From contig PCXC01000007.1 in NCBI GenBank assembly GCA_002796345.1, positions 30,403 through 78,938 on the forward strand: a stretch of 48,536 nucleotides of DNA, read 5' to 3'. The notes beneath the pieces are model-generated. The model did not search any database and had not been told where the DNA came from. It saw only the letters and a program-made list of their open reading frames with translations. The position numbers and the translations under genes were made by a program. The stretch is from Deltaproteobacteria bacterium CG11_big_fil_rev_8_21_14_0_20_42_23 (lineage in GTDB: Bacteria > UBA10199 > 2-02-FULL-44-16). This document shows positions 19,908 to 47,718 of the stretch, piece after piece. How positions within the stretch are numbered: the stretch's first letter is position 1; every line of letters begins with the position of its first letter.

Positions 19908-19936
19908 TTATATTTTTCCTTAGTGCAATGCCCACA

Positions 19937-21749: not shown

Positions 21750-21753
<4 letters not shown>
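21052..21753 (-). CDS. pseF: CMP-pseudaminic acid synthetase
   Basis: Cytidylyltransferase that activates pseudaminic acid. The CTP-binding start IPARGGSKRIPFKNIKDF is at residues 6-23, with VIVSTDSSEIAEVA and CCIYPTAPF; the KRIPFKN and YPTAPF variants are typical of PseF and differ from the LegF copy (KRLPGKN, PTSPLR) at 3255-3956. 233 aa is normal. It follows pseC with a 4-bp overlap. Confidence 0.9.
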
Positions 21754-25808
<4,055 letters not shown>

Positions 25809-28213: not shown

Positions 28214-30013
28214 TTAAGTTAAAACTTCTTCTATTACTATGTTTTGTTGCACTTGAATCATTTGAGAAAAAATTCCAATTGTTTTCTGGCGTAGGTCAAC
28301 ATAGCTGCCCTCTTCAATAACATGTCCCTCTCGTAAAACATAAACATAATCCGCTTTCGCAATAGTTGATAAACGATGAGCAATAATGAGTACCGTTGTA
28401 TTTTTTGCCAATGCATCAATAGATTCTTGGATCAATCGTTCTGATTCAGAATCGAGAGCACTGGTGGCTTCATCCAAAATCAACAACTCGGGCTTAAGAA
28501 GAAGTGCTCGAGCCAGTGCAATGCGCTGTCTTTGTCCACCTGATAAACGCGCCCCACGATCACCGACTATGGTATCAATACCCTGAGGTAATTCCTTCAC
28601 AAAAGTTTCTGCATTCGCCATACGACAAGCTTTCCATAAATCATCTTCACTTCCTTCAGGGTAAGACCACAACAAATTATCACGGATTGATGTGTGAAAC
28701 AGTAAAGGCTCTTGTGGCACATATCCTACACGCTCACGAAAGCTATTTTGCTTCCACTCACTAAAAGGAATTCCATCTAATAAAACTTCACCTTGTTTTG
28801 GAATCTGCAAACCTAGCACAAGATCAGTAATGGTAGATTTTCCAGATCCAGACTCACCAACTAAAGCAGTCATCTTCCCTTTACGAATTGTCAAATTGAC
28901 ATCTTGTAATGTTTTCTGACGGCCCGGGTAGATAAACGTTACATTCTTCAATTCCAATCCACTTTTTAGTCGAGTGAAAAGCCTATCCCCTTCAACTTCT
29001 TCAAGACTTTTCGCTTGCTCTCGAAGCGAAACCAACTGTTCATAACTTGGGAGAAATGTATTTATACTCACACTGGAAGACATCAACTGTCCCAAGATGG
29101 GCAATGCTCGAAGAAGACTCCAAAGTAAGGCTGCCATTTCAGCAATGGGGCTTCCAAGATGGAGCGCTACTCCTAAGGCAACAATTGCAGATAAGATTCC
29201 TATGGGCTGATAGAGCAACCCTACACCAGTCTCCAAAGTTTGAGAACGTAATGTAACATGAACATGTTGATCAAAGACCTGCAAAAAACGCTTTCTAGAC
29301 TGTGCTTGACGGCCAAATCCCAAAATAAGTCGAGCTGCCGACAAAATTTCAGTTATCGCTCCCATCATCACATTGGCAGTTTCAGTATTCTGCTGTCCCA
29401 GACGATATCCCACTTTTTGTAATAAGAAAAAAGGCAAGCCCAACAAGAGTGCTATACCCAAAGCCGTAAGCGTCATTGTTGCATTTAGCCATAATGGAAC
29501 AGAAAAATAGATACAAAGCTGTACTACTCTCGCAAGCTGTGTAGCCATGTGCCCCAGGGTATCACCAATGTTTTGAAGCTCTTTATTAAGAGTATTCAAT
29601 AATCTTCCTTGGTCTGTCCCACTGAAGAATTCCCAGCGCGCTTTCAAAAAGGTAGTTAATGCACCACCATACAGGCCTCGAACTACAGCATACTTTATAT
29701 GTAAAATGAAATATCTCGCAACAACACTCAGTAAGCCCATGATCAGATTAGACAAGACAAACAACAGTCCAAAAAACCAAAAGCTTGGGTGTATATTCAA
29801 AGGCCCCATGACTCCTAACAACACTTGAGTTAGTCGACTGGGTGCTGCAAGAGTTGGGTCTAACAGAAAATCGGCCAGAGGCACCATGGCAAGAACTGCC
29901 GCTGCCGCAACAATCCCTTCGACCACCAAAATGAGAAACAACACGACAAAGTGTCGAGGGTAACTCGTCATGAATTCCCTGAAAATAGCAACAATACTAG
30001 ATCGTCTCGTCAA
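28214..30013 (-). CDS. ABC exporter, fused permease-ATPase (MsbA/PglK-like flippase)
   Basis: 599-aa half-transporter: six membrane spans in residues 20-310, then the ATPase. Walker A is GESGSGKST at about 386-394, the signature is LSGGQRQRIALARALL, Walker B is LLILDEATSALDSES, and the H-loop is IIAHRLST. It probably flips a lipid-linked oligosaccharide across the inner membrane, in place of a Wzx flippase, which is not seen in the window. It lies among the glycosyltransferase genes, 20 bp after the TIGR04372-type gene. Confidence 0.92.
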   Translation of the reverse strand: MTRRSSIVAIFREFMTSYPRHFVVLFLILVVEGIVAAAAVLAMVPLADFLLDPTLAAPSRLTQVLLGVMGPLNIHPSFWFFGLLFVLSNLIMGLLSVVARYFILHIKYAVVRGLYGGALTTFLKARWEFFSGTDQGRLLNTLNKELQNIGDTLGHMATQLARVVQLCIYFSVPLWLNATMTLTALGIALLLGLPFFLLQKVGYRLGQQNTETANVMMGAITEILSAARLILGFGRQAQSRKRFLQVFDQHVHVTLRSQTLETGVGLLYQPIGILSAIVALGVALHLGSPIAEMAALLWSLLRALPILGQLMSSSVSINTFLPSYEQLVSLREQAKSLEEVEGDRLFTRLKSGLELKNVTFIYPGRQKTLQDVNLTIRKGKMTALVGESGSGKSTITDLVLGLQIPKQGEVLLDGIPFSEWKQNSFRERVGYVPQEPLLFHTSIRDNLLWSYPEGSEDDLWKACRMANAETFVKELPQGIDTIVGDRGARLSGGQRQRIALARALLLKPELLILDEATSALDSESERLIQESIDALAKNTTVLIIAHRLSTIAKADYVYVLREGHVIEEGSYVDLRQKTIGIFSQMIQVQQNIVIEEVLT

Positions 30014-30034: not shown

Positions 30035-31246
30035 TCACTCTAACCAATCCTGTTTTTCACGTAGAAATTGGGCACCATAACGAGCACAAATTTTTCCATG
30101 AAGCGGCCTGCACCCATCCTTAGCATCCACTGGAAAAATTTTCCAAAAACGCCGTTGCAAATCATCATCATTTTGTTCAGGTTTCCAGACACCTTTCAAG
30201 CGCTCTAGCATTTCAATCACAAGTGATTTAATTTCCTCGGGCGTGTTTTCAATGACCTCAATACCTTGAGCTTGATAGTCAGAAGTTGTTCCAAAAAAAC
30301 CAACTCCACGGCTAAATATTTCTTTGAAAGTAAGAAATCGCTGCTCTGATACTAATTTATATTTTTTACATATCCCCACAGTGTTTTTTAGAAAAGTTGC
30401 AAAATATCCAATAGGCACCATGTTTACATAGGCTATTGGTCTTCTAAACACCTGAGGGATTGCATCAAAACCAGTACCGACACTAATACAAAACAAGCAC
30501 TTTGCACCAAGGTAAACATCCATAAAATCATCCCGCATTCCATTGGTGGCATAATCAATTACTTTTGGATGACTCGAGTGAATAGGTTCTTTAACTACTG
30601 CGCCCATGCGAATCACATAGTAGCCAAGATTTGCAAGTGCTTCTGCCGCCAAAACATAATTCTGAACATCAACATCCCGATAATCGTGATAATCCCATTG
30701 ACCAGGAAGTTCTGTATTTAAATACGCACTATCCCTGGCAATCAAACAAATGAATTCAGCATCTGAAGGAATGCCCATTATTCGCAAACCTTCTTTCCCA
30801 CGAAGTTCTTCTTTCGCTGTAAAACTAAGATGTGGAGGAATGCGTTCGTACAGATTATATACATCCCGATCATAAGAAGTATTTTCTCCGATCTCGTGAA
30901 TTAATCCCCCCGGAAAAAAGCTGTTCAGTATAAAGACTGGCCTCAATAACCAAGATGGCCAAACCCTCAAACAGCGCCCCAACATAAGTGCCAACTGTTT
31001 GTTGGCTGGCTTATAGGCATGATAATACAAGTTTATATGACATTCTTTTGGGACATTAATTCCCGCATCACGCTCACAAAGATGTACTTCTGTGTTAAGC
31101 GCAATATGCCCAATTCTGGAACTGTACAATGGCATTATTCTGATAAGTAACCAGCGCCGAAAAAGACGCATGAAAAGAAAAAATGGTAAGGTCAGAGGCA
31201 AAACAAAAAGAAATTGAAGTATTTGGTATAATTTGCGCAACAACAT
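30035..31246 (-). CDS. TIGR04372-family putative glycosyltransferase
   Basis: About 403 aa. RIGHIALNTEVHL, the central FICLIARDSAYLN with the following YHDYRDVDVQNYVLAAEAL, and SVGTGFDAIPQVFRRP match proteins grouped as TIGR04372 putative glycosyltransferases of surface-glycan loci. A hydrophobic N-terminal stretch (LFVLPLTLPFFLFM) may associate with the membrane. I prefer ATG 31246, preceded by a purine-rich GGTGGACAG, over ATG 31312, which lacks any ribosome site; the choice is not certain. Donor and acceptor are unknown. Confidence 0.78.
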   Translation of the reverse strand: MLLRKLYQILQFLFVLPLTLPFFLFMRLFRRWLLIRIMPLYSSRIGHIALNTEVHLCERDAGINVPKECHINLYYHAYKPANKQLALMLGRCLRVWPSWLLRPVFILNSFFPGGLIHEIGENTSYDRDVYNLYERIPPHLSFTAKEELRGKEGLRIMGIPSDAEFICLIARDSAYLNTELPGQWDYHDYRDVDVQNYVLAAEALANLGYYVIRMGAVVKEPIHSSHPKVIDYATNGMRDDFMDVYLGAKCLFCISVGTGFDAIPQVFRRPIAYVNMVPIGYFATFLKNTVGICKKYKLVSEQRFLTFKEIFSRGVGFFGTTSDYQAQGIEVIENTPEEIKSLVIEMLERLKGVWKPEQNDDDLQRRFWKIFPVDAKDGCRPLHGKICARYGAQFLREKQDWLE

Positions 31247-31364
31247 TTTCTGTCCACCATGATAACTTTTTTTATATTGGTGCAATATCAATATAAAGTT
31301 CAAAAATTTCATAACTTAATGATCTCGTTAAGCATCATCCATTCAACGCTAAATCCATTACAAA

Positions 31365-32474
31365 TTAACTGTAAAATTCGCACATAACTGACACCATATA
31401 GTCAACTTGTTCCTCAGTAATATATTGGTGTGCAGGTAATGTAACAATCTCTCCCGCTTGCCGTTCACAAACAGGAAAATCTCCAGTTTTATAACCAAGC
31501 TCTTCTGCAGCCTTTTGCAAGTGAAGAGGAACGGGATAATGAATTTTTGCCTCTATCCCCTTAGAGATGAGGTAAGGAAGAAGCTCTTCTCGTCTCTTAG
31601 CTCCAATTTGGTAGAGTTGATACACTTCACGGTTTGTTTGCGGCCGAAGAGGAACCTGAATTCTCCCCTCTAATTGTTTCAATCCTTCATCCAATCGAGA
31701 AGCGTTTCTATTACGAGCCCTAATTGAATCTTCAATTTCATCTAATACGCGGCTGGCAATCACAGCCTGGATAGGCTGCAGGCGTGAATTAATTCCCCAC
31801 ATGGAGTTGTGATCTCTGTCAACCATACCATGGTTTTGATAGATGCGAATAAACTCAGCAACACTGTCATCATTGGTTGCAATAAGTCCACCATCTCCCA
31901 TCACGTTAAGAGGTTTTAAGGGATGCATACTAAATGCGTTCACCTTTCCAAACGTCCCAGCAAATTTCCCATTTATTGTGGCTCCGGTTGCTGGACAAGC
32001 ATCTTCAACGACGTCCAAACCATATTTTTGTGCAATGTCCAAAACTGCTTCGATATCAGGAGAGCATCCAGCCCAATGAACGGGAAGAATCGCCTTTGTC
32101 TTTGAAGAAATTGCTGCTTCAATCTTTTCAGCATCAATTTGATAACGTTCATTACAATCAACAAAAACAGGACATGCACCAATAGCAACAATTGAACCTA
32201 CTGTCGCATAGAACGTATTGGGAACTGTGATAACTTCGTCACCCGCTTTGAGCCCCAATGATTTAAGAGAAAGGATTAATGCATCCGTTCCATTTGAGGT
32301 ACCTATCACATGTTTCGCACCAATATATGAAGCAAACTTTTTTTCAAATGCTTCTACAAAAGGTCCAAAGGTAAACTCACCCGAAGCTATCAATGGACGA
32401 AGGTCTTCGAAGTAGACCTCCATCGGATTTGAAAATTGTTCTTTAAGATAAGAGTATTGCACTTTCATATTCAC
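31365..32474 (-). CDS. DegT/DnrJ aminotransferase, second of a tandem pair
   Basis: 369-aa PLP-dependent sugar aminotransferase. GTSNGTDALIL, VPNTFYATVGS, the PLP-ring Asp in VVEDACPATGA, and the PLP lysine in SMHPLKPLNVMGDGG are present. The HPLK...GDGG form resembles 3-keto-sugar aminotransferases such as the FdtB/QdtB group, though that is only a family hint. It is clearly related along its whole length to the upstream gene at 32481-33584. Substrate unknown; likely a keto group made by enzymes of the same module. Confidence 0.88.
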   Translation of the reverse strand: MNMKVQYSYLKEQFSNPMEVYFEDLRPLIASGEFTFGPFVEAFEKKFASYIGAKHVIGTSNGTDALILSLKSLGLKAGDEVITVPNTFYATVGSIVAIGACPVFVDCNERYQIDAEKIEAAISSKTKAILPVHWAGCSPDIEAVLDIAQKYGLDVVEDACPATGATINGKFAGTFGKVNAFSMHPLKPLNVMGDGGLIATNDDSVAEFIRIYQNHGMVDRDHNSMWGINSRLQPIQAVIASRVLDEIEDSIRARNRNASRLDEGLKQLEGRIQVPLRPQTNREVYQLYQIGAKRREELLPYLISKGIEAKIHYPVPLHLQKAAEELGYKTGDFPVCERQAGEIVTLPAHQYITEEQVDYMVSVMCEFYS

Positions 32475-32480: not shown

Positions 32481-33584
32481 TTATGTGTAAAAGTTAGAAA
32501 TTAATTCAACAACGCGATCTTGCTGAGTTTCAGATAAATTTGAATGCAAAGGAAGACTCAATATTTTGCTTACATGTTTCATAGTTTTGGGGAAATCAGA
32601 TGCTGAGTATCCTAAACTTTTTGCTGCAGGTTGCAAATGAATCGGTGTCTCATAATGTATCAGAGCTTCAACTCCATGTTCATTTAAATATTGTTTAAGT
32701 TCATTACGTCTTTCCGCTTTTATCACATACGTTTGGAAAACACACCGTTCACCAAGGCCTTCATTTGGAACCTCAACATAGGGATGCAAGAGATCATTAT
32801 AGCGGAAAGCCAGTTTTCGCCTTGCTTCTGTCCATTCATCGAGATATCGCAATTGTATGCGAAGCATTGCGGCATGCATCGAATCCAATCTACTATTAAA
32901 ACTCCAAAAATCACATTGTTCTCGATTTGCCAATCCATGATTGCGAAGTCTTGGCAGCAAGGCGATCAGATCAGGATCTTGACTCGTAATCATTCCTCCA
33001 TCACCAAATGCGTGTAGGTTTTTGAGTGGGTGTAAACTGAAACATGCAGCATGCCCCCAACTTCCAACGCGTTTGCCATCGAGCGATGCGCCCACAGCCT
33101 GAGCCGCATCTTCCAATACAAAAAGATTTCGTTTTTGCGCTATCGCAAGAATGTCATTCATCTTTGCTGGTCGACCCGTCAGATGAACTGGGATAATAGC
33201 ACGAGTACGATCTGTAATAGCATCTTCCAAACGCTGTGGATCCATATTTCCATCGTCACCTATATCTACAAAAACTGGTTTAGCACCAGCAAGTGCAATA
33301 GGCGAAACCGTTGCAATAAATGAGTTTGGAACAGTGATAACCTCATCACCGGGAACAAGACCAATTCCCCTGAGAACCAAGTGCAAAGCAGAAGTTCCAT
33401 TAGAAACTCCAAATGCAAATTTCGCTTGGCAATATTCCGCAAATTCATGTTCAAAGCCTTCCACCTCAGGTCCTAGTATGTAACGTCCACTGTCAAGAAC
33501 CCCTTCCACAGCAGACATAAGTTCAGCTTTATGTTGGGCAACTTCTGTAGACAAAGCGGAATAGGATATAGTATAGCTTGTCAT
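32481..33584 (-). CDS. DegT/DnrJ aminotransferase, first of a tandem pair
   Basis: 367-aa PLP aminotransferase. GVSNGTSALHLVLRG, VPNSFIATVSP, EDAAQAVGASLDG and the PLP lysine in SLHPLKNLHAFGDGG are present. ATG at 33584 overlaps the Nudix stop as ATGA, and the next gene starts 6 bp after its stop. The tandem pair looks like an old gene duplication that has diverged, which would allow amination at two positions of one sugar or of two sugars. No catalytic residue appears lost in either. Confidence 0.88.
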   Translation of the reverse strand: MTSYTISYSALSTEVAQHKAELMSAVEGVLDSGRYILGPEVEGFEHEFAEYCQAKFAFGVSNGTSALHLVLRGIGLVPGDEVITVPNSFIATVSPIALAGAKPVFVDIGDDGNMDPQRLEDAITDRTRAIIPVHLTGRPAKMNDILAIAQKRNLFVLEDAAQAVGASLDGKRVGSWGHAACFSLHPLKNLHAFGDGGMITSQDPDLIALLPRLRNHGLANREQCDFWSFNSRLDSMHAAMLRIQLRYLDEWTEARRKLAFRYNDLLHPYVEVPNEGLGERCVFQTYVIKAERRNELKQYLNEHGVEALIHYETPIHLQPAAKSLGYSASDFPKTMKHVSKILSLPLHSNLSETQQDRVVELISNFYT

Positions 33585-34015
33585 AGTAATGAACTTTCTC
33601 CTCTCGTAATTGAGCTTGCAGTTAAAAAGGCTGCATCCCAGGTTTTAATAAGATACTCCGGAATCGGATAATTCACAGCATTGGAGCGTTCGATAAAAGC
33701 CAATGCTTGTCCTTCGTAACAAGCAACTGATTGAATTCCATCATACCAACACCAAAAAAACGTAAGTGTATACTGAGCCCAACCTTCGACTACATCTTCA
33801 AAAGACATCAAAAACTGTAAATCAACTGCATCATACCCCGTTTCCTCACGCAGCTCCCGACGCGCACAGTCAATTGCTGTTTCACCTGGCTCGGAGTGAC
33901 CCCCTGGAGGAACCCACATACCCGCATTTCGAAGACCTACTTTTTCATCCCGATGTTGTAATAATGCAGCCCCATCATGACGCAAGAGCAGCACAGCCGA
34001 CACCCCATCATCCAC
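33581..34015 (-). CDS. Nudix hydrolase
   Basis: 144-aa hydrolase of nucleoside diphosphate-linked compounds. The Nudix box is complete: GGHSEPGET...RRELREETGYD fits Gx5Ex7REUxEExGU. The frame opens at a GTG at 34015 with no good ribosome site. An ATG at 34055 has a proper AGGA site but lies in another frame; losing one base in the short T or A run at 34029-34040 would join them and give a more usual N-terminus. So the 5' end may be frameshifted or mis-sequenced. In this setting it may clean up NDP-sugars; the role is unknown. Confidence 0.8.
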   Translation of the reverse strand: MDDGVSAVLLLRHDGAALLQHRDEKVGLRNAGMWVPPGGHSEPGETAIDCARRELREETGYDAVDLQFLMSFEDVVEGWAQYTLTFFWCWYDGIQSVACYEGQALAFIERSNAVNYPIPEYLIKTWDAAFLTASSITRGESSLL

Positions 34016-34088: not shown

Positions 34089-35174
34089 TTAAAACGGCCC
34101 CTTAAAAAAAGCATCCGGCACATCAATCGCGAGTCCCCCACGCTGGACAATCAGTTCACTTATCACAGCTTCGATATCGGATTTATCAAGCCCCAACATG
34201 TGTTGTATGTTACGTAATATGGAAATTGAGTCTGGATAGAAGTTTTGAATAAGTCCCCGCGAACTTGGTGTAGGATGATCTGGAAGTCCCATCCTCATTG
34301 GAGCAACTTTGAGTTCTGAAAAACAATGGTCCACAACACTCGAAACAATCTCAGAACCAACACCATATTGTTTGAATCCAGTATCTATTGTCAGCAAACG
34401 TCCCGTCTGTTGTACAGATTCAAATATTCTGTCAAGCTTAAGCGGTCGTAATACGCGCAGATCAAAGACGGATGCTGAATATCCCAGAGTTTCAAGCGCT
34501 TTGGCTGCACGTACGGCCTCCAAGGTCATGTATGACGTGGCTACAATAGTTAAATCCTTACCAGGATGCACCTTTCGAGGCCCATCTATAGGCTCTACAT
34601 AATATCCTTCCGGAACATGCCCATTCACGTAATGACACCAACGATGTTCAATAACAATTACTGGATTTTCATCTTCCACGGCTGCAATGATCAACCCTTT
34701 TGCATCATCTGGATAGGTCGGCATGATTACTTTTAGGCCTGGAAAATGAGAAAATATTGCTTCGATACTTTGGGAATGTTCGGGTCCTTGCCCCCAGCCG
34801 CGCCCCACTATCAAGCGAATAACCATGGGGACTTTATGTTTCCCATTGCTCACATAATGAGCCTTTGCCGCATTGTTCACAATTTGTTCTATCGCCAACA
34901 ATGCAAACTCTACTCGATGAAAGCTGATTACAGGCCGTTTTCCCATCATCGCCGAACCAATAGCCACACCACATAATCCGTTTTCTGATAATGGCATTTC
35001 AATCATGCGCTTAGAATCAATATGTTTTCCAATATCTGCCGTGGTACCAAATACAGATGATGGATCAGTTAGTCCTTCAGCCATGAATAAGACAGAAGCA
35101 TCACGCACAGCAGCTTCAGTTAGCCCCTCTCTGATAGCATTGCCAAAACTCATTATTCGTTTTTGTTCTGTCAT
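34089..35174 (-). CDS. Thiamine-diphosphate E1 beta subunit (transketolase-like)
   Basis: About 361 aa. MPLSENGLCGVAIGSAMMG contains the Glu that activates thiamine diphosphate. QIVNNAAKAHYVSNGKHKVPMVIR, GPEHSQSIEAIFSHFPGLKV and the C-terminal transketolase domain match pyruvate/acetoin dehydrogenase E1 beta. I start at ATG 35174; AAGGAGG lies 10 bp upstream, whereas the longer frame begins with TTG at 35201 and contains that site. It pairs with the alpha gene 59 bp upstream. No E2 or E3 gene is present, so it is unlikely to be a normal dehydrogenase complex. Confidence 0.88.
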   Translation of the reverse strand: MTEQKRIMSFGNAIREGLTEAAVRDASVLFMAEGLTDPSSVFGTTADIGKHIDSKRMIEMPLSENGLCGVAIGSAMMGKRPVISFHRVEFALLAIEQIVNNAAKAHYVSNGKHKVPMVIRLIVGRGWGQGPEHSQSIEAIFSHFPGLKVIMPTYPDDAKGLIIAAVEDENPVIVIEHRWCHYVNGHVPEGYYVEPIDGPRKVHPGKDLTIVATSYMTLEAVRAAKALETLGYSASVFDLRVLRPLKLDRIFESVQQTGRLLTIDTGFKQYGVGSEIVSSVVDHCFSELKVAPMRMGLPDHPTPSSRGLIQNFYPDSISILRNIQHMLGLDKSDIEAVISELIVQRGGLAIDVPDAFFKGPF

Positions 35175-35233
35175 CCGAAACAGCCCTCCTTCAAAATTCA
35201 ATAAACAATATTATTTTTTCTTTAACTCTACAT

Positions 35234-36214
35234 TCAAACATATACGTGAGTCTGAGCCTGAGACGATTCTGGCAATGGTGCAGATTTCGCGAATTCAAAT
35301 GCACTATCAATTTCTTTTTTGAATTCAAGTACCAAAGATTCTTCATACTCAGCTGATAACAAGTTAAGGTCCTGTAGCTTTACTTTGCAATTATCAATTG
35401 GACAACGCAAACGCCATTCTTGAAATTCTGCCTCATCACGATATCCAATGTTATTATCAAAATCAGTACCGCAATGTGCGCGCCATCTATAGGTGTCAAA
35501 TAACAAAAAAGTTGGACCATTACCATTTCGTGCGTGCAACACTGCTTCTCGGCTTGCATTGAAAACAGCACTCACATCATTGCCATCAGCGGACGCAAAC
35601 TTCATCCCATGGGCAAGAGCAAGATCAACAAGCTTTCGTGGTGGCTGTCGATCTTTTAACGGTGTGTACACTGAAAAAAAATTATTCTCACAAACAAAGA
35701 GTACTGGTAACTTATGCAAGCTTGCAAAGTTGGCACTTTCATGAAAAACACCCTCTTCAACGGAACCATCACCAAAAAAAGCAACACTCACATTCTGGTT
35801 TCCATCAATATGATCTGAAAGAGCTGTTCCAACTGCAAGAGGAATGGAACTCCCAACAATTGGCACGCTCGCAATAAGACCTTTGGCATGATCAGCAAGA
35901 TGCATAGAACCTCCACGCCCTCCCATACAACCTTCAGCCTTACCATAAATCTCTGCTAACATAGCCTTTAGATTTCCATCCATCGCAAGATAATGTGCAT
36001 GACAACGATGAGTACTAAATACTCGGTCTGTATGTTTTAGATTATGACATACACCAACTGCCGCTGCTTCTTGACCAATGGAAAGATGAACAGGACAACG
36101 CATTTCCTGCTCTGCATAACGTTCAACTATACCCTCTTCGATCATTCGAATTCTGAGCATTTTACGATACATTGGCAACAGATGTTCCCGCTGAATTGTT
36201 GATAAATTATTCAA
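35234..36214 (-). CDS. Thiamine-diphosphate E1 alpha subunit
   Basis: About 326 aa. The thiamine-diphosphate motif runs from GDGSVEEG to the Asn in CENNFFSVYT. CPVHLSIGQEAAAVG and GRGGSMHLAD are typical of E1 alpha. The best ribosome site (AAGGAGG, 5 bp spacing) points to a TTG start at 36214; ATG codons at 36241 and 36259 are in frame but poorly placed. With the beta subunit it forms an alpha2beta2-type enzyme that makes an acyl anion from a 2-oxo acid. In a sugar locus it may add a two-carbon branch to a keto sugar, as proposed for AviB1/AviB2 in avilamycin synthesis. Confidence 0.85.
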   Translation of the reverse strand: MNNLSTIQREHLLPMYRKMLRIRMIEEGIVERYAEQEMRCPVHLSIGQEAAAVGVCHNLKHTDRVFSTHRCHAHYLAMDGNLKAMLAEIYGKAEGCMGGRGGSMHLADHAKGLIASVPIVGSSIPLAVGTALSDHIDGNQNVSVAFFGDGSVEEGVFHESANFASLHKLPVLFVCENNFFSVYTPLKDRQPPRKLVDLALAHGMKFASADGNDVSAVFNASREAVLHARNGNGPTFLLFDTYRWRAHCGTDFDNNIGYRDEAEFQEWRLRCPIDNCKVKLQDLNLLSAEYEESLVLEFKKEIDSAFEFAKSAPLPESSQAQTHVYV

Positions 36215-36316
36215 ACCAACCTCCTTGTTATTTAAATCCATACCTTTGGCTTTATCCATCTCAAAAAATATTTGTATGGAGCTACATACGTTTTGAGTAA
36301 TTTTAACAACAAAGAA

Positions 36317-37162
36317 CTACCTATAGCTCTTTATTGCAGTTTCCAATTCTGTAAAACGAAATTCTGGAAAGCTTGAAATTAATTTACTATTATCAAATAC
36401 AAGATCAAAAGTTCGATTGTTATTACTAGATTTCACAACGATTTCAGCATCGAGGTTCAACACCAGCTTTATACATTTTGCAATGTCTAAAATTGATCGA
36501 CTTTTCCCTGAGGCAACATTGACTAAACCATGGTACTGCTTGCAAATACATAACCATATCAATGCACACACATCATCAACACAAACATAATCTCTCAAAT
36601 TTTTTTCATTCCCAGTTATTTCAATACGCGCATCTGTTATAGAATTAGAAATCATCTTTCCAATCACACTCTTATCATTGCAAGCATTTCCAAAAATTCC
36701 TGGTATCCTTAGAATAGCAATTGGGCAATTCAATAGTTCAGTAGAAGTAAGTATCCATTCGCAAGTATACTTTGCAAGTCCGTACCAAGTGTCTGGCTCG
36801 ATTTTTGTTTGCTCAGATATGGGGAGTATCGGTTTATTTCCGTAGACATCTACTGAACTCAGATAAACAATTGAACGAATATTTTTACTTACTCCTGCTT
36901 GAATCAGATTGTTTACTAAAGAAATATTATTTAAGTATGATTGATAATTATTCGAGTCATCCTTCTTAATGACAGCTAAGAATACAATTGTCACGGAATG
37001 ACCACTTAGAGTACTAAAGAACGCATTCACTTCCTTTAAATTTCGAAAATCACAATCTTTTGAAGAAAGCAAAACAACTTCACAGTCTCTTGTTCGAAGA
37101 GATTCAGTTAAATAGCTTCCTATATAACTATTTTTTCCGACAACAATAATTTTATTTGTCAC
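36317..37162 (-). CDS. NAD-dependent epimerase/dehydratase (SDR)
   Basis: 281-aa extended SDR. NAD-binding GKNSYIGSYL lies at residues 9-18, and the catalytic residues appear intact: Ser in LSSVDVYG and Tyr-Lys in WYGLAKYT. GTG start at 37162 with GAGG 7 bp upstream. It may be a 4-keto reductase or epimerase in the module that also holds the E1 pair and the aminotransferases. Substrate unknown. Confidence 0.85.
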   Translation of the reverse strand: MTNKIIVVGKNSYIGSYLTESLRTRDCEVVLLSSKDCDFRNLKEVNAFFSTLSGHSVTIVFLAVIKKDDSNNYQSYLNNISLVNNLIQAGVSKNIRSIVYLSSVDVYGNKPILPISEQTKIEPDTWYGLAKYTCEWILTSTELLNCPIAILRIPGIFGNACNDKSVIGKMISNSITDARIEITGNEKNLRDYVCVDDVCALIWLCICKQYHGLVNVASGKSRSILDIAKCIKLVLNLDAEIVVKSSNNNRTFDLVFDNSKLISSFPEFRFTELETAIKSYR

Positions 37163-37171: not shown

Positions 37172-37867
37172 TCAACGAAATTTCGTTTCGTCCCATGTCG
37201 TCCACTCAGGATCCACCTCAAGAATAGTCCAATAGTAGTCTCCTCTATAATCAGCTTCCTTCAATAATTGTATCCATTGTTCGGGAGTTCCATGTGTTTT
37301 TGCTGTAAGTACCCAGTCAAGAAAAACTTCCTTTTCTCTTTCCGTACGATATGCGTCCACTTGAACATAACCATGCCGAGGTGCAACCCGTTGCATTTCG
37401 TGGATGGCTTTGACACAATCGGCACGGTCAAGATTATGTACAGTATTGATTGAGAGTGCTGCAGTGAAGCTATCATCTGGAAATGGCAGGTAATCAGCAC
37501 TACCAAGTTGCAAACGGCCAACAACTTCAGGTTCACAGTGCATTAAGGCGTAAGACGAGATGTCCAATCCATAGGCATCAATGCCTAATGCACAGAGATC
37601 CTTCACAAGAAAACCTTTAGCACATCCAATATCGAGCACTCGATCACCTGGCTTCAATCCAAAATGGTTGATAATGTCTTTGGCTACCGGTTGCCAGCGA
37701 CCATCATAATGATAACCACCATACCCATATTCGCGAGGACCATCGAAATACATTTCACCATACTCCCTCGAAATACGTATATGTTCATCAGTCTTTGCAG
37801 CCTCTCTGGACTTGACGTTGCGCTTACCTTTTGGCAATGATTTGAGTAGTTCAATTTCAGCCATCAT
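37172..37867 (-). CDS. Class I SAM methyltransferase
   Basis: 231 aa. SAM motif I is VLDIGCAKGFLVKDL, then DAYGLDIS (ribose-binding Asp) and FPDDSFTAALSINTVHNL. The N-terminus contains Gly/Tyr-rich YGYGGYHYDGRW, and the C-terminus ends in a Trp-rich stretch; both are seen in sugar C- or O-methyltransferases but I cannot name the subfamily. Tandem ATG at 37867/37864; it overlaps the upstream SDR gene by 11 bp. Confidence 0.85.
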   Translation of the reverse strand: MMAEIELLKSLPKGKRNVKSREAAKTDEHIRISREYGEMYFDGPREYGYGGYHYDGRWQPVAKDIINHFGLKPGDRVLDIGCAKGFLVKDLCALGIDAYGLDISSYALMHCEPEVVGRLQLGSADYLPFPDDSFTAALSINTVHNLDRADCVKAIHEMQRVAPRHGYVQVDAYRTEREKEVFLDWVLTAKTHGTPEQWIQLLKEADYRGDYYWTILEVDPEWTTWDETKFR

Positions 37868-38744
37868 GAAACTCCTGACTTTGGCTCAAGGCCAAACCAA
37901 TATCTAAGGGAGTATAATTGAAATCCGGAAAAACTTGGGTAGTCAAGGCAACATCAAAAGCGCGATAACCACCATGAGGCATCAGACCTACTCTAGGAGT
38001 AGTTATTATTTCCACAGATTTGGAAGAGATCGCAATAACCTTCTTAGCAAGATCCCAAAATGAAATAAGCTCACCTGTTGCAATATTTAAAACACCTTCA
38101 CTTCTTGAACATATGCACTTTGTGGCAATCTCTGCTACATCATCAATATAAACATGATCGCGTCGTTCTTCACCTTCACCAAAAAGAATAATATCTTCCC
38201 CTTGATGGGCGAGACGTCGAAAACGATTCGGCCCATAACCATTATGTGGATCGTTCGCACCATAAATTAAAGTTGGGCGAAGAATGCACAACGATCCCTT
38301 GTAAGCATCAGCCAACATAGTTTCTCTGGCAAGATGCATAACACCATGCAAGCTCGTTGGTTGTGCACAGGAAGTTTCATTTAATGGAGTGCTTGCATCC
38401 GCATAAACCGCATCAGAACTTATATAGGTAACATGCTCCACAGGATTTGAGCTTAACGCGTCACACACCACAGCCATCATACGTAAATTGTCGATAAGCA
38501 TGGCAGAATTTTTTGTAGGAGCCTGAGCCGAAATCACAACAAGAGCATCATTTTTTCGTAACATCAGTTTCAGTTGCTCAACTGCATTTTCAGCAAGGAG
38601 ATCAATATCCTTGCGTACCAGAGCAACAACTTGCGCATTGCGTCTACGAAAACTTTTTGTAATAGCACTTCCAACAAAACCACCTGCACCAATAATAACA
38701 ACACGTTCAGGTAAAATCTGCGATGAAAGATTATTTTTGAGCAT
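37857..38744 (-). CDS. SDR-fold protein lacking the catalytic YxxxK
   Basis: 295 aa with a normal NAD-binding start (IGAGGFVGSAI, about 18-28), ISSDAVYAD, LRPTLIYGAND and DHVYIDDVAE as in extended SDR epimerases. At the place of Tyr-x3-Lys the sequence reads LHGVMHLARE, with His at both catalytic positions. I checked the codons and found no frameshift. It may bind NAD(P) and sugar without the usual proton transfer, or use another mechanism. It directly follows the dehydrogenase homologue that also lacks its catalytic residue. Confidence 0.8.
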   Translation of the reverse strand: MLKNNLSSQILPERVVIIGAGGFVGSAITKSFRRRNAQVVALVRKDIDLLAENAVEQLKLMLRKNDALVVISAQAPTKNSAMLIDNLRMMAVVCDALSSNPVEHVTYISSDAVYADASTPLNETSCAQPTSLHGVMHLARETMLADAYKGSLCILRPTLIYGANDPHNGYGPNRFRRLAHQGEDIILFGEGEERRDHVYIDDVAEIATKCICSRSEGVLNIATGELISFWDLAKKVIAISSKSVEIITTPRVGLMPHGGYRAFDVALTTQVFPDFNYTPLDIGLALSQSQEFHDG

Positions 38745-38749: not shown

Positions 38750-40033
38750 TTAAATTCCTTCTGGAGCAACACCGAGCGTAACATGCTGTAACCCAGCATT
38801 TTTCGCCGCTTTGCTCTCAATGACCTTATAAGGATCTATAAGTAAACGTCCTCGCATCTGGCTAGCAAGTTCTAATGGGAGGAGTTTTTTAAATTCTCCC
38901 CATGGAGTCATGATGCAAACGACATCTGCATCTTCAACTGCTTTTAGAGCATTCGATGCAGCCTTAAACGAAATTCCAGCATGAGATGGAGAAACAACAG
39001 GATCATAAACTACAACAGAATAATCTAGCAAATGAGAAAGGAGTAACAACGATGGAGAGTTTTTCGTGCTATGTGTATCTTCCTTGTAAGCTAACCCGAG
39101 TACAGCAATTTTAGCCGCTGGATTTTGTGCAAGCATATATTTTTTAAGAGTTCTCCAAGCCCAGTCTTTGCAGTGACCACTGTTGGCAACCCAGGCGGAA
39201 ACAATACCACCATCTGTTTCATGTTTTTTAGAAAGCGTAAGTACCGTTGCGAGATCACGCTCCAAGTTGCCTCCAGAAATTCCAAGCCCTGGAGCAAGAT
39301 ATGAATATTGACCAATACGTTTATCAAGTTTAAGCGCTGGTACAATTTCAGACCAGTCGGCTCCCACATGTTCACACACTTCAGCCATAGTATTAGCTAC
39401 TCCAACTGACGCAACCAAACACATGTTGATGGAAATTTTTGCAAGCTCTGCACTTTCATATCGCATCGGCAAAATCGGACAGTCAAAGCTTTCAAGAAAA
39501 GTTCTAAATGTTGACAACAACGGTTGATCGGGTTCGGCACAACCAACAATAAAGCGTTCGGGAAAACGCGCACGCTCCATAGCACGACCAAAAATTAAGG
39601 TCTCGACTTGATAATACATTGTACGTCCAGAACGCATTCGGGCGCGAGTAAAACCAGGCGGCACTTGGCAGAGAACAATCATCGCAACATCTGCATGCAA
39701 CACCATATCAACCTGATTAATGAGAGCGTCAATTTTAGACAAATCACTTTTACCAAATTCATCAGTTGGCACATCCTGTGCGATATAAACTACACCGCAA
39801 GAAGTCAATTCGCGTGGGTCTGCGGTAAACATGATACGCTGTACATTCTTCTTGAGTAGTTCAGGGAGATCAGGTTCAACAACTGGCAATTCACTCTTCT
39901 TGAGCGCACTAACACGTGATAAATCGGGATCGTAACACACAACTTCAAAACCCTTGTCTGCAGCTGCCACAGCAGAATTAAGTCCAAGGTGAGTCATTCC
40001 CACATAACCAATGATTGGAGTAGATGTAATCAT
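38750..40033 (-). CDS. UDP-glucose/GDP-mannose dehydrogenase homologue with Cys replaced
   Basis: 427 aa, full length, with the N-terminal NAD domain (GYVGMTHLGLNSA), central helical domain and C-terminal UDP-binding domain (VLGLAYKEDTHSTKNSPSLLLL). In active enzymes GGSC(F/L)PKD carries the nucleophilic Cys; here the aligned stretch is ISGGNLERDL, with Asn in place of Cys. The two-step oxidation to a uronic acid is therefore doubtful; a single oxidation or another NAD-dependent change is possible. It overlaps the Gfo/Idh/MocA gene by 4 bp. Confidence 0.85.
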   Translation of the reverse strand: MITSTPIIGYVGMTHLGLNSAVAAADKGFEVVCYDPDLSRVSALKKSELPVVEPDLPELLKKNVQRIMFTADPRELTSCGVVYIAQDVPTDEFGKSDLSKIDALINQVDMVLHADVAMIVLCQVPPGFTRARMRSGRTMYYQVETLIFGRAMERARFPERFIVGCAEPDQPLLSTFRTFLESFDCPILPMRYESAELAKISINMCLVASVGVANTMAEVCEHVGADWSEIVPALKLDKRIGQYSYLAPGLGISGGNLERDLATVLTLSKKHETDGGIVSAWVANSGHCKDWAWRTLKKYMLAQNPAAKIAVLGLAYKEDTHSTKNSPSLLLLSHLLDYSVVVYDPVVSPSHAGISFKAASNALKAVEDADVVCIMTPWGEFKKLLPLELASQMRGRLLIDPYKVIESKAAKNAGLQHVTLGVAPEGI

Positions 40034-40953
40034 AAAATTGGTCCTAATGAACGTTGCGTAAGATCGCTAAGTACGGAATTAATCCACATATCATTTTCAA
40101 TATTACTTTCACCCTTTGTACACAAGCGCTTGAAGTGCTGGTATTCCAATTCCCAAGTTGGATCTGCTTGTACTAAAGTTATTGCTTCGTCATCTGGTCT
40201 TCCACTTGGCAGTTTACGATCACGCAATGTAAATGTACTTGGTCCCCATTTGCAAAGCGACTGAATATGCGCACTTCCCTTTTCAGCAAACACATCTGCA
40301 TAGAAATGGTTACGCCAATTTAGCAAGGTCATTTCCAATTGCAAAACTGGCATTCCGTTAGCACCAAATGAAAAATGATCAAAAGAAAGGTTTTCGAAAC
40401 GGTTACAGGAATAAATTTCGAATGGAGCAGATGGTTTACCAAACCAAAACAATACAGTGTCAAGAAGATGCGAACCTAAATCTGGTAACACCCCTGCACC
40501 TTGATCACGCCAAGCTGAATCTCGCACTAGACGCGCAGTACCGTTACCGTAGAACATGCGAACACAATAGATCTTCCCTAATTTTCCAGAGTCAATGACT
40601 TGTTTCATGCGCACAAAGTGCGGTTCGAAGCGATGGTTGTAAGCAGTGTAACAGACCGCATTATTGAGAGCTGCGGTTTTTGCCAAAGTTTCAAGCACGC
40701 TGTTGTTAGTTGCAAAAAGCGGTTTTTCAACTAAGAGATGTTTCCCATTACTTAACAAATGAGTCAGTAACTCAATCTTGGCATCATCCGGCGTACAAAC
40801 GAGTGCTGCATCATACAAATTGAGCGGAACGTCAGCTAGCGAACAATAATCTGCCTCAGGATGCACGGGATCAACTGTAGCAACAACTTCTTTGCCTGCA
40901 ACCGCGCGACGCTTATTTCCTTGTACTCCAAGACCAACAATAATCACCCGCAT
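40030..40953 (-). CDS. Gfo/Idh/MocA family oxidoreductase
   Basis: 307 aa, slightly short for the family. The Rossmann fold starts IIVGLGVQGNKRR (3-15); EKP occurs in LLVEKPLFA; NHRFEPHF and LGSHLLDTVLFWFG with the usual Asp/His region follow. It is likely to oxidise or reduce a nucleotide sugar. It sits between the nucleotidyltransferase-kinase fusion and the dehydrogenase homologue, and shares general features with the oxidoreductase at 162-1238. Confidence 0.85.
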   Translation of the reverse strand: MRVIIVGLGVQGNKRRAVAGKEVVATVDPVHPEADYCSLADVPLNLYDAALVCTPDDAKIELLTHLLSNGKHLLVEKPLFATNNSVLETLAKTAALNNAVCYTAYNHRFEPHFVRMKQVIDSGKLGKIYCVRMFYGNGTARLVRDSAWRDQGAGVLPDLGSHLLDTVLFWFGKPSAPFEIYSCNRFENLSFDHFSFGANGMPVLQLEMTLLNWRNHFYADVFAEKGSAHIQSLCKWGPSTFTLRDRKLPSGRPDDEAITLVQADPTWELEYQHFKRLCTKGESNIENDMWINSVLSDLTQRSLGPIL

Positions 40954-40959: not shown

Positions 40960-42525
40960 TTATTCTCCATCATAACGATAAAGCGTATGCGTTTCTACGC
41001 GATGAATTTTCTTTTTCACAGCTTCCGACATAACAGGCCAGTTTCCATCATGTTCACATTCAACGCCTGCTGCCATACAACCTAGTATAGATGCAACAAC
41101 CTCGTTCTTAGTAGCAATCATAGCAAGTGTGGCATATGCAAGCATGGCATCACCAGCTCCAACTGCATCTACAACCTGCTCTACAAAACTATCGATAGCA
41201 AAAAAAGCTCGGTAATCTCCCGGCTCTCTTGAAGAACGATATGTAATTGTTCCACGCTCACCTAGTTTAAGAATAAGTGTTTTACATTTAGAGCGACGGT
41301 ACAACTCTAGCGCAAGTGGTCTCACTACTGAATCTTGATCGCCCAATGCAAACCGAGCTTCGCGCTCATTTGGAGTAATCAGATCAAAACCTTCGAACTC
41401 AAGTATATTGCCCCATCGACTAGCAACCTGGCTATCTGCAACACGATAAGCACCTTCAGGAATTGCAGCTGCCAATTCTGGAATTGTGTGTCGGTTAAAA
41501 ACACCATGACGAAAGTCACTAAACACAACAGCATCCGATTTTATACTAGAAATTTGTTCTTTCAAACGCTTCACCGTCTTATCCGAAATTGAACGATTAT
41601 CCAAAGTATCCACTTTGAGCAAACGATAGCCTTTTACAATGATTGCATTCTTATTCGTAGTAGGCCTTGTCTCATCAACGATGGGCAAAATGTTAACCCC
41701 AGCTTTTTCTAAATCATCAAGTACATAATTCTTAAACGCATCTTCACCAAGCACTGTAGAAAATGTCACATCAGCACCTGCTGCCTTAAGATGCTTTGCA
41801 ATAATTGCTGCTCCTCCAGAATAATCTACCTTCTTCTGAAATAAAACGCTCATAGTTGGAGTTTTTGTCATCCCGCCAATCATGTCACAATAAGTATAGC
41901 TATCTACAATAGTATCGCCCACAACATGAACCTTGATCCCCTCGAATTTATTAAGAGTAGCATAGAGATTGCTAAACGTAATATCTTCCGCAGTCATTAA
42001 GGATAAAAGTTTTTCAGTAGCAATTTTTGGTGGAGCAAGTTCAATGAGAGCAGAAGATGAATACACAATATCTCCTGGAGTAAAAATAATTTCACCACCG
42101 TATGTTTCTAGAACGGCCAACTCTTCTTGAGTCTTAGGATTTATTCCTCCACTAGAATATTCGTAGCCCTTTGCAAAGTAGTCCGGCTTGATTAATTCTA
42201 AATTGTAAAGCGGAGTTGGTCTACGATCAATAATTACATAATCAACTACTTCTAAAGCAGCCAAATTGATCGCTCGTAGATCCTCTGGAACATAAGGACG
42301 AGAGTTCGCCTTCATAATGTGTTCATCTGCGGTCAAACTGGCAATCAAAATGTCACCTTTTGTTTTCGCATACAAAAGATGCCTAACGTGCCCAGGGTGA
42401 ACAACATCAAAGGTTCCATGACACATGATCACTTTTTTTTGACGAGGTCTCGGCCCAATGATTTTCGAAAGCTGCTCCGCAGTTTTAATCTTTCGCTCTA
42501 CTAGTTTTTTGCTTGTTTCATCCAT
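40960..42525 (-). CDS. Fused sugar nucleotidyltransferase-PfkB kinase (HldE-like, domains in reverse order)
   Basis: 521 aa. The N-terminal cytidylyltransferase-fold domain has HGTFDVVHPGHVRHLLYAK at about 36-54 and resembles the nucleotidyltransferase half of HldE. The C-terminal half is a PfkB-type sugar kinase: VGDTIVDSY near 200, SGGAAIIAKHL, TPNEREA, and DAVGAGDAMLAY with the catalytic Asp. Normal HldE has the kinase first. ATG 42525 is chosen for its TAGGAAG site; a TTG at 42552 is the alternative. Together with the SIS isomerase, HAD phosphatase and transaldolase upstream it forms an NDP-heptose-like pathway, with an unknown exact sugar. Confidence 0.88.
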   Translation of the reverse strand: MDETSKKLVERKIKTAEQLSKIIGPRPRQKKVIMCHGTFDVVHPGHVRHLLYAKTKGDILIASLTADEHIMKANSRPYVPEDLRAINLAALEVVDYVIIDRRPTPLYNLELIKPDYFAKGYEYSSGGINPKTQEELAVLETYGGEIIFTPGDIVYSSSALIELAPPKIATEKLLSLMTAEDITFSNLYATLNKFEGIKVHVVGDTIVDSYTYCDMIGGMTKTPTMSVLFQKKVDYSGGAAIIAKHLKAAGADVTFSTVLGEDAFKNYVLDDLEKAGVNILPIVDETRPTTNKNAIIVKGYRLLKVDTLDNRSISDKTVKRLKEQISSIKSDAVVFSDFRHGVFNRHTIPELAAAIPEGAYRVADSQVASRWGNILEFEGFDLITPNEREARFALGDQDSVVRPLALELYRRSKCKTLILKLGERGTITYRSSREPGDYRAFFAIDSFVEQVVDAVGAGDAMLAYATLAMIATKNEVVASILGCMAAGVECEHDGNWPVMSEAVKKKIHRVETHTLYRYDGE

Positions 42526-42629
42526 GCTTCCTACCAATCTTCCATAAATCAAAAATTTAGGGGAAAAGTTTCTTCATTCAATCCAGAAAAATAATCTTCC
42601 TTTTTCTGGTTCCAAAAATTCCATAAGTT
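42526..42629. other. Gap after SDR gene with in-frame tail behind a TAG stop
   Basis: 104 bp. The upstream SDR ends in TAG (42630-42632), after which the same frame stays open for 26 more codons to a TGA at 42549-42551, reading NLWNFWNQKKEDYFSGLNEE... This may be a chance open stretch or a tail lost by a point mutation. The end of the gap holds the ribosome site of the next gene. No promoter or terminator is evident. Confidence 0.35.
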
Positions 42630-43631
42630 CTAAGTGCTGAGATTAGACAAAGTTTCAAACCACGTCTTTGTCGCATTGGCTATGGTCTTTGAATCCCATA
42701 AGGGAGCATTGCGCCAATATTCGATATTGTCGAGAATACGTTTTACGCCCTCTTCAAAACTCACCTTCTGAGTCCATGCTAATTGGGATTTAATCTTGGT
42801 AATATCCGCCCAAGTACAATCAGGTTCTCCAGGTCTTTTTGGAATGTAAACTACTGGGCCATCAAGTAATTCAACCAAGCGATTGACAGATTGGGGATTT
42901 CCAGCTCCCAAATTGTAAAGCTCTCCCACAATCTTTGTTGTAGCTGCCTCATAAAAAGCTTGCACAACGTCGGTTACATAAAGAAAATCGCGTGACTGAG
43001 TTCCATCTCCCACAACAGTGAATGGTCTTTTTTCTAATTTTTGCTTGAGAAAAACACCAAATACAGCACCATAAGCACCTGAGGTACGAGAGCGCGTACC
43101 ATAAGCGTTAAAAATCCTCACTGAATTGACAGGCAACTTATAAACAATATTCCAGTGAAAGCATGCTTGCTCACCTTGATATTTACTTAATGCATACGGA
43201 TATTGTGGAGAAATAGCATGATCTTCTTTCGTTGGAACATCTGCCAGGCCATAGCATGAGGATGAAGCTGCATAGACAAATTTTTGAACCTTTGCATACC
43301 GTGCACACTCCAACATATGAACTGTGCCTTGGACGTTAGAGGACATGTACTCAAGAGGACGTTCAATTGACGGGACAATATCTCCTATACCAGCAAAATG
43401 GAATATGTATTTTACCTCTTTAAAAAGAGGATCATTTGGTGCAAAGCTTCGAATATCACGCTGTTCAAACACAAGCGATTCTTTAGAATGATGAGCAATA
43501 TTCTCCTCACGTCCTCCAACAAGATTATCAATCACACGAACTTCGAAACCCTCTTCAATCAGCAAATCCACCATGTGACTACCGATAAAGCCTGCTCCAC
43601 CGGTTACTACTGCAATTGGCTTCGTTTTCAT
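42630..43631 (-). CDS. NAD-dependent nucleotide-sugar epimerase (GalE/WbpP-like SDR)
   Basis: 333-aa extended SDR. NAD-binding GGAGFIGSHMVDLL lies at residues 11-24, VIDNLVGG follows, and the catalytic set is SSSCYG and Tyr-Lys in YPYALSK; RIFNAYGTRSR and DGTQSRDFLYVTDV are typical of UDP-hexose 4-epimerases and GDP/UDP-sugar dehydratases. It overlaps the next upstream SDR gene by 4 bp. Likely works on the NDP-heptose-like product of this module. Confidence 0.88.
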   Translation of the reverse strand: MKTKPIAVVTGGAGFIGSHMVDLLIEEGFEVRVIDNLVGGREENIAHHSKESLVFEQRDIRSFAPNDPLFKEVKYIFHFAGIGDIVPSIERPLEYMSSNVQGTVHMLECARYAKVQKFVYAASSSCYGLADVPTKEDHAISPQYPYALSKYQGEQACFHWNIVYKLPVNSVRIFNAYGTRSRTSGAYGAVFGVFLKQKLEKRPFTVVGDGTQSRDFLYVTDVVQAFYEAATTKIVGELYNLGAGNPQSVNRLVELLDGPVVYIPKRPGEPDCTWADITKIKSQLAWTQKVSFEEGVKRILDNIEYWRNAPLWDSKTIANATKTWFETLSNLST

Positions 43632-44635
43632 GACGCTCTTAACTCCTTTAACCGTTTAACATTGTAATAAAAAGTGTCACTTAAACTATTTTGAAGTTTT
43701 CCAGCCTTGAAAGCTACACACAAATCCCGTACCGCATCTTCAACAGTGCGCTTTGGCTGAAAATCTAATGCGCCTCTAATTTTATCAGAATTAACATGAT
43801 AAGATCTAAGATCGTCACTTGAAGTAACTTCAATTGGAATATTGCCTTTTTCAGGAAAAAGATCTTCCACTACATGCTTCACAGTTTGAGCAATTTCCAT
43901 GATTGACATGTTCTGGATAGCTGCATTGAAAATTTGTCCAGCGATTTTCTCATCTGGCACCCTGAGCAAAAGTTTATAGAGATCTACCATATCTTGGATA
44001 TGCAAATTAGGACGTTTTTGTTCACCACCGAACACCGTAATTTTGTTATTGTTCATCGCATGATTAGTAAGAATGTTTACTGACAGATCAAGCCGTTGCC
44101 GCGGTGCATAGCCACAGAGCGTCGCGGGACGAATAGCAACGCATGTAAATTCAGGTGATTGGTGTTTGAAAAGAAGCGGTTCACACATTCCCTTATATTT
44201 ATTGTATAATGTGAGCGGTACCAAAGGATGTTCTTCAGTGACGTTAGGAGAATCTGAGACACCATAGACAGAACTTGATGAACAATAGATGAAACGTTTA
44301 ACCCCGGCAGCCTTTGCAGCAAGAACCATAGGTTCAAAAGCATGTAAGTTCACTGAAGTGGACAATTTTTCATCGAGTTCGAAACTTGCATCGTTAGAGA
44401 TACAAGCAAGTGAGATAACCGCATTCATATTTTTTAAGGCTTGAGTAAGTTGTGGCGTATCCCGGATATCTCCCTTAATTAGAGTTAAATTAGGGTTGTT
44501 TTTTGGTAAAAAATCATCACCAAAATACATAATGTCGTACACAGTGACTTTATAGCCAGCATCAAGTAATTGTGGAACAAGTAAACTGCCAACATACCCC
44601 GCACCTCCAGTAACTAAAACTTTTTCAAACTTCAT
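43628..44635 (-). CDS. NAD-dependent epimerase/dehydratase (SDR)
   Basis: 335 aa. NAD-binding GGAGYVGSLLVPQLL is at residues 10-24, the catalytic set is SSSSVYG and Tyr-Lys in LYNKYKG, and RPATLCGYAPRQRLDLSVN is typical of a branch of SDR proteins in heptose and deoxysugar loci. A GGAGG site lies 4 bp before ATG 44635. Follows the transaldolase gene directly. Exact reaction unknown. Confidence 0.87.
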   Translation of the reverse strand: MKFEKVLVTGGAGYVGSLLVPQLLDAGYKVTVYDIMYFGDDFLPKNNPNLTLIKGDIRDTPQLTQALKNMNAVISLACISNDASFELDEKLSTSVNLHAFEPMVLAAKAAGVKRFIYCSSSSVYGVSDSPNVTEEHPLVPLTLYNKYKGMCEPLLFKHQSPEFTCVAIRPATLCGYAPRQRLDLSVNILTNHAMNNNKITVFGGEQKRPNLHIQDMVDLYKLLLRVPDEKIAGQIFNAAIQNMSIMEIAQTVKHVVEDLFPEKGNIPIEVTSSDDLRSYHVNSDKIRGALDFQPKRTVEDAVRDLCVAFKAGKLQNSLSDTFYYNVKRLKELRAS

Positions 44636-47658: not shown

Positions 47659-47718
47659 GCCTCACCTCAGTAAAATCTACAAGCTGGTTATTGCCAAATA
47701 AATTATTTTTAAACAAAC

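Follow-up and report, generated by a model that had tools for sequence, protein, structure and literature searches.

A partnerless E1 alpha/beta pair in a heptose-type surface-polysaccharide locus as a candidate sugar-branching carboligase

We describe a pair of E1 alpha- and beta-like subunits, encoded in the window (the whole stretch of DNA that was analysed, 48,536 nucleotides long), which judging by their sequences are reasonably likely to form a free-standing carboligase of the alpha-KADH2 type that would transfer an acetyl group from pyruvate onto a keto NDP-heptose and yield a C2-branched, perhaps amino, sugar for a surface polysaccharide. A branched-chain surface sugar had already been proposed as the role of the pair in a first-pass annotation of the window, and this role is supported by the trees and by the lack of an E2 (lipoyl transferase) on the contig, with the branched sugar itself as a prediction.

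Both genes lie where they had been placed, with Pfam matches far beyond chance, and the reading frames span 34089-36259 on the minus strand. The upper end given in the first-pass annotation, 36214, is a TTG codon which has AAGGAGG just upstream and may be the true start of E1 alpha. The thiamine diphosphate (ThDP) motif and the catalytic Glu that had been ascribed to both subunits are indeed present, but divided between them, with the motif in alpha (GDG at 163-165, NN at 192-193) and the glutamate in beta, where E73 and the conserved His H142 are invariant among the relatives in a 33-sequence alignment. Structures of pyruvate dehydrogenase (PDH) E1 beta align with the AlphaFold model of the window's E1 beta (pLDDT 87.8) across about 330 residues, and the motifs of the pair and its fold, as predicted for beta, are typical of PDH E1.

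A whole-genome search returned three E1_dh genes, located in the window and on contigs C52 and C64, and two E2 genes, one on C52 with the PDH E1 alpha/beta genes and the other on C64 with the OGDH E1; in the same search, no E2 was found on contig C7, which carries the window. Since both E2 genes adjoin their own E1s on other contigs, the window pair is the third E1 of the genome and has no partner. Of the E3-family proteins (Pyr_redox_dim), one is encoded on C64 with OGDH and one on C7, approximately 36 kb outside the window. The earlier statement that neither a lipoyl transferase nor a dihydrolipoyl dehydrogenase is near agrees with these results, as no E2 lies just outside the window, near the pair or anywhere else on C7.

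The first-pass annotation described the pair correctly but missed a C-terminal tail that is shared among its relatives. The E1 beta extension of sugar-linked pairs closes with F-x-G-P-[F/Y]-COOH (DVPDAFFKGPF in the window), and this tail was found in 47 of 100 aligned beta subunits, pairs from Streptomyces antibiotic clusters included, and in no E2-linked beta subunit among the 100. Across 70 genome loci whose beta subunit is complete, 41 with the tail and 29 without, an E2 lay within 10 kb of none of the tail pairs as against nine of the tail-less ones, and an HldE-like gene (22 loci), the short-chain dehydrogenase SDRb (20) and a methyltransferase (17) were near tail pairs and near no tail-less pair; these loci are related, were chosen by E1 alpha similarity and are in part incomplete, and Fisher p-values, which overstate their independence, serve as a guide only. 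The suggested survey of polysaccharide loci for orphan E1 pairs brought up sugar-locus pairs across phyla, with no E2 beside the tailed ones. Tail pairs invariably have P56, R204 and G264 in alpha and R96, W136, Q138, R187 and D273 in beta, residues that are missing or infrequent among E2-linked pairs and likewise mark the family. In the beta model, the tail extends beyond the normal chain end of PDH E1 beta, with a confidently predicted helix at 340-354 and less certainty for the last ten residues (63), and our guess is that it may close the site of E2 docking or of lipoyl-arm entry. Two in-clade pairs from heptose-type loci (L015/L199 and L020/L201) lack the tail, which is therefore not strictly required, and tail pairs also occur in other settings (L203, L090, L096, L102-L104). 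The tail-type pair of L203 (Streptomyces griseofuscus pSGRIFU1) adjoins a condensation-domain protein and butyrolactone-type regulators, and sugar genes were not seen within 8 kb of it.

Trees of both subunits, which were quick searches with SH-aLRT support only and for which the tail was removed from beta, separate the pair from E2-linked E1s, including the PDH of its own genome; the clustering with true PDH E1 that the first-pass annotation had named as contrary evidence was not seen. One clade of 56 rows (SH-aLRT 99) in the E1 alpha tree takes in all 47 tail pairs; inside it, the window belongs to a clade of 39 rows (100), and the E2-linked rows lie outside the larger clade. In the beta tree, the window lies in a tail group of 31 rows (94) and the E2-linked rows in another group (99), with five changes needed for the tail label. 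The nearest companions of the window pair are thus orphan pairs from sugar loci, followed further out by paulomycin-type Streptomyces pairs, which here stand in for AviB1/AviB2: L068, L079 and L149 are in the 56-row alpha clade and form a subgroup of tail pairs. L079 looks like the paulomycin cluster, as its E1 lengths (325/345) are those of Pau11/Pau12 and it also encodes EF-G, an MFS protein, a 426-aa EryCIII-type glycosyltransferase and deoxysugar genes. Kinship with the alpha-KADH2 members is therefore shown by proxy only, through this locus and its relatives L068 and L149 (alpha clade and tail), and a grouping of the window pair with the alpha-KADH2 branching pairs, as a separate branch in putative heptose surface-sugar loci, is supported. 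A second clade of orphan E1 pairs, all tail-less (L013, L014, L077, L082, L086, L087, L094, L098), was also seen, most of them near DegT aminotransferases.

The PDH-like fold and motifs, together with the presence of E2 elsewhere in the genome, could suggest a duplicated pyruvate or acetoin dehydrogenase E1 that uses the existing E2/E3 and lies in a sugar locus incidentally. However, the window pair and the PDH E1 of the same genome share only about 31% (alpha) and 37% (beta) identity, the beta subunit of that PDH falls among E2-linked E1s in the tree, the tail is foreign to E2-linked beta subunits, and the sugar-locus neighbourhood is conserved across phyla. We consider such a duplicate highly improbable and rejected it on E2 linkage, trees and tail.

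The carboligase reading draws further on the gene run around the pair, which comprises 17 genes on one strand, from 46558 down to 30035, in the order in which Table 1 lists them from the SIS-domain gene to the protein without Pfam match. No gap between them exceeds 77 bases, and an ABC transporter follows.

Table 1. Genes of the run that contains the E1 pair, with its flanking export and transport genes
Feature	Coordinates	Strand	Basis or remark
Wzz-like chain-length protein and SLBB (Wza-like) export protein	46555..48300	-	just upstream; surface-polysaccharide context
SIS-domain GmhA-like ketose-phosphate isomerase (sedoheptulose-7-P isomerase type)	45968..46558	-	homology
HAD phosphatase, GmhB-like (heptose-1,7-bisphosphate 7-phosphatase type)	45382..45951	-	homology
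Transaldolase	44651..45385	-	TIGR02134, above its cut-off
SDRb, extended SDR, frequent partner of the E1 pair	43628..44635	-	best solved relatives 6vo6/6vo8
SDRa, extended SDR, epimerase/dehydratase type	42630..43631	-	homology
HldE-like fused nucleotidyltransferase (N) - PfkB kinase (C)	40960..42552	-	domain order opposite to HldE
Gfo/Idh/MocA oxidoreductase	40030..40953	-	Pfam; conserved in module
UDP-sugar 6-dehydrogenase homologue without catalytic Cys (GGSC to GGNL)	38750..40033	-	Pfam, alignment
SDR1 oxidoreductase	37857..38744	-	Pfam
SAM methyltransferase (Methyltransf_11)	37172..37867	-	Pfam; recurrently close to E1 pairs or split transketolases
SDR2 oxidoreductase, directly upstream of E1 alpha	36317..37162	-	Pfam
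E1 alpha-like subunit, 341 aa	35234..36259	-	Pfam E1_dh 3.9e-63; GDG...NN motif; alpha tree
E1 beta-like subunit, 370 aa, C-terminal extension ending DVPDAFFKGPF	34089..35201	-	Transket_pyr 4.6e-27, Transketolase_C 1.5e-27
NUDIX hydrolase	33581..34015	-	Pfam; also in L036, L037, L202
AT1, DegT/DnrJ/EryC1 aminotransferase	32481..33584	-	HPLK lysine present
AT2, DegT/DnrJ/EryC1 aminotransferase	31365..32474	-	HPLK lysine present
Protein without Pfam match	30035..31312	-	homologues recur in several E1 loci
ABC transporter (flippase type), downstream end of run	28214..30013	-	homology

SDRs, a methyltransferase and two DegT aminotransferases adjoin the pair as had been claimed, and the description of the setting as a sugar-nucleotide module stands, but its resemblance to a heptose rather than a hexose pathway had gone unnoticed. 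GmhA-like, HldE-like and GmhB-like proteins occur together in the run, as distant homologues that all fall below the NCBIfam equivalog cut-offs. The best PDB match of SDRb is 6vo6 (E 2.5e-39; next best 1.1e-23), and we take 6vo6/6vo8 to be Cj1427, the GDP-D-glycero-D-manno-heptose C4 dehydrogenase of C. jejuni. The catalytic Cys is also gone (GGSC to GGNL) from the UDP-sugar-dehydrogenase homologues of L032, L036, L037, L049, L060 and L072, and is retained by ordinary UDP-sugar dehydrogenases in the same alignment; the Cys-less homologue is probably a two-electron dehydrogenase, whose product would be a ketone or aldehyde and not an acid. As a whole, the run resembles a heptose-type sugar-nucleotide pathway for a surface polysaccharide, and the acceptor sugar is probably a heptose.

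Elsewhere in the window, two NeuB-type nonulosonate gene sets are present at 7767-11750 and 16276-23902 (NeuB at 8933-9934 and 17914-18960); cytidylyltransferases (3255 and 21052), DegT aminotransferases and a Polysacc_synt_2 dehydratase accompany them. A glutamine amidotransferase and HisF-like pair, of the kind used in amidino-sugar modification, lies at 3953-5357. Beyond the window, C7 encodes at 76000-95900 (L160) an ordinary UDP-glucose 6-dehydrogenase, the type III secretion protein SctV, SecA and an FHA-domain protein. The last three, together with the taxonomic spread of the sampled relatives (same class, then same domain, with no other class of the phylum), point to a host that is probably related to the chlamydiae.

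From these genes we infer a pathway, including its chemistry, substrate and product, the identity of the heptose, the position of the branch and the role of the tail. Heptose 7-phosphate would come from the transaldolase together with the GmhA-like isomerase, and its conversion to NDP-heptose would fall to the HldE-like kinase/nucleotidyltransferase and the GmhB-like phosphatase. A ketone would then be formed by SDRb (Cj1427-like, at C4) or by the Cys-less UDP-sugar-dehydrogenase homologue, and could come from any of several oxidoreductases. The E1 pair would decarboxylate pyruvate, hold the hydroxyethyl (acetyl-anion) group on ThDP and add it to the ketone of the NDP-sugar, which would thereby become a tertiary alcohol bearing an acetyl (C2) branch. 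This branch might be reduced by SDR1/SDR2 or aminated by AT1/AT2, as in kibdelomycin, and the methyltransferase might finish branch or ring by methylation before the sugar is built into the surface polysaccharide.

Relatives of the pair are widespread. Scanning one genome per species for similar E1 alpha proteins gave 80 loci whose E1 alpha is 40-63% identical; they come from Pseudomonadota, Cyanobacteriota, Chlamydiota, Acidobacteriota, Verrucomicrobiota, Planctomycetota, Bacteroidota, Spirochaetota, Chloroflexota, Actinomycetota and others. Loci collinear with the window operon are L032 (Alphaproteobacteria) and L036 (Acidobacteria); collinearity is partial in L037, L049 (Chlamydiia), L060, L072, L185, L198 and L201, and many genes are about 50-70% identical to those of the window. 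A compact version on a plasmid of the soil bacterium Azospirillum oryzae KACC 14407 (L202; SDR, SDR, PfkB, SIS, SDRb, E1 alpha, E1 beta) is accompanied by two DegT aminotransferases, NUDIX and glycosyltransferases. Aminotransferases were not seen near E1 in L036, L193 and L201, and amination of the predicted sugar therefore looks optional. E1 pairs, several with an FKGPF tail and sugar genes, are also found on IMG/VR contigs classed as viral (L107-L136), and annotated phage records gave only distant matches (about 26-35% identical).

A reciprocal search with SDRb (at least 48% identity) found it in 15 other genomes of 384, with E1 pairs near it in seven and split-transketolase-like pairs in four (five loci). 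One of these four genomes also counts towards the seven; for the rest, either the contig did not extend far enough for a judgement or neither enzyme turned up. The split-transketolase-like pair occupies the place of the E1 pair in L189, L194 (where it was confirmed by Pfam), L195, L197 and L200, with a methyltransferase homologue beside most, and no other ThDP enzyme was found among the proteins tested from SDRb loci without an E1 pair (L186, L190, L191). Transketolase can make sedoheptulose 7-phosphate, and these split pairs could suggest that the E1 pair, too, acts in a transketolase-like manner upstream of NDP activation, helping to form the ketose phosphate with which the heptose starts. 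This seems unlikely to us, as the run already has a transaldolase, the pair is of the E1_dh type and not Transketolase_N, and its Streptomyces relatives lie in deoxysugar clusters that have no such need.

A somewhat less improbable alternative, though still one we would not expect, retains the carboligase chemistry and changes the partners: the 2-oxo acid would be a different one, or the acceptor would be, for example, a free aldehyde or an amino-sugar intermediate, and the product would then not be a C2-branched heptose. The invariant Arg, Trp and Gln specific to the tail family suggest an altered active site, module composition varies, and sugar genes were not seen near the tail pair of L203; however, the characterized alpha-KADH2 enzymes appear restricted to C2 branches from pyruvate (PMC12247030).

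We favour the C2-branching carboligase and raise, as a bolder and less probable generalization, the idea that the cross-phylum branch of E1-like pairs tailed with FxGP[FY] makes C2-branched heptoses (nine-carbon, sometimes amino and methylated), with split transketolases carrying out a parallel hydroxyacetyl reaction in the sister loci. To our knowledge, no C2-branched heptose (nine-carbon branched) monosaccharide of this kind has been described. The data point to a large set of E1-type genes that occur in the surface-polysaccharide loci of ten phyla or more and that a sequence mark distinguishes from dehydrogenase E1s. Annotation as pyruvate dehydrogenase E1 comes easily for genes of this kind. 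If our reading is true, an undescribed class of branched high-carbon sugars would be predicted, and the tail could provide a simple marker for finding branched sugars and new biocatalysts that form tertiary alcohols.

Compared with known systems, what appears new is the heptose/surface-glycan setting and the tail, as the kind of enzyme is already known from antibiotics. In the open-access literature searched, no account of E1 pairs from heptose surface-glycan loci came up, and a 2025 review ascribes branching of LPS sugars to YerE-like enzymes and treats E1-type and transketolase-type branching as belonging mainly to antibiotic biosynthesis, with split transketolases proposed for hydroxyacetyl branches and no solved structure of an E1-type branching enzyme (PMC12247030). 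YerE, which acts in the synthesis of yersiniose (a C2-branched octose of LPS), resembles our proposal in that a pyruvate-derived C2 branch is placed on a keto-sugar nucleotide for a surface polysaccharide, but it is a single-chain acetolactate-synthase-like flavoprotein, in contrast to the E1 alpha/beta heteromer of the window; an enzyme of the YerE type was ruled out by the domains (E1_dh and Transket_pyr/Transketolase_C on two chains). PDH and acetoin dehydrogenase E1 share fold, ThDP motif and catalytic residues with the window pair, which differs from them in its lack of an E2/E3 partner, its clade and its extra C-terminal tail.

The lincosamide octose pathway (LmbR, N, P, K, O, M, L, Z, S) has counterparts in the window by category only (transaldolase, SIS isomerase, kinase, phosphatase, nucleotidyltransferase, SDR, dehydrogenase, oxidoreductase, transaminase) and, unlike the window, no E1 pair. 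Attractive gene by gene, a lincosamide-like pathway was set aside as an analogy only: for the UDP-sugar-dehydrogenase-like enzyme, examined for kinship with LmbL, there was no match at 1e-60 in 394 Streptomyces, among which the lincomycin producer may not be included. Each step of the C. jejuni GDP-heptose pathway (PMC10680097), namely isomerase, kinase, phosphatase, nucleotidyltransferase and the C4 dehydrogenase Cj1427, has a counterpart in the window (SDRb being a candidate one for Cj1427), where kinase and nucleotidyltransferase are fused, unlike in C. jejuni, which epimerizes or reduces the 4-ketone and for which no ThDP carboligase is described.

The closest likeness is to the alpha-KADH2 pairs, which add, or are proposed to add, a pyruvate-derived C2 branch to keto-sugars in the pathways of aldgamycin, kosinostatin, kibdelomycin, paulomycin, avilamycin and everninomicin, where the branch can later be reduced, methylated or transaminated (PMC12247030). 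KbDH-alpha/beta couples pyruvate to ketones in vitro (PMC12247030), and Plm8/Plm9 (= Pau11/12) of paulomycin attach a pyruvate-derived C2 unit in vivo (PMC4802897). Like the window pair, these enzymes (AviB1/AviB2, Pau11/Pau12 = Plm8/Plm9, EvdU5/EvdS3, KbDH-alpha/beta) are E1 alpha/beta pairs without E2 and lie in NDP-sugar gene sets with enzymes that form keto-sugars, and the paulomycin-type pairs share with it one alpha clade and a GP[FY] C-terminus. The known pairs belong to TDP-deoxyhexose antibiotic genes, whereas the window pair lies in a surface-polysaccharide locus among heptose-type enzymes and represents a separate subclade that extends across phyla.
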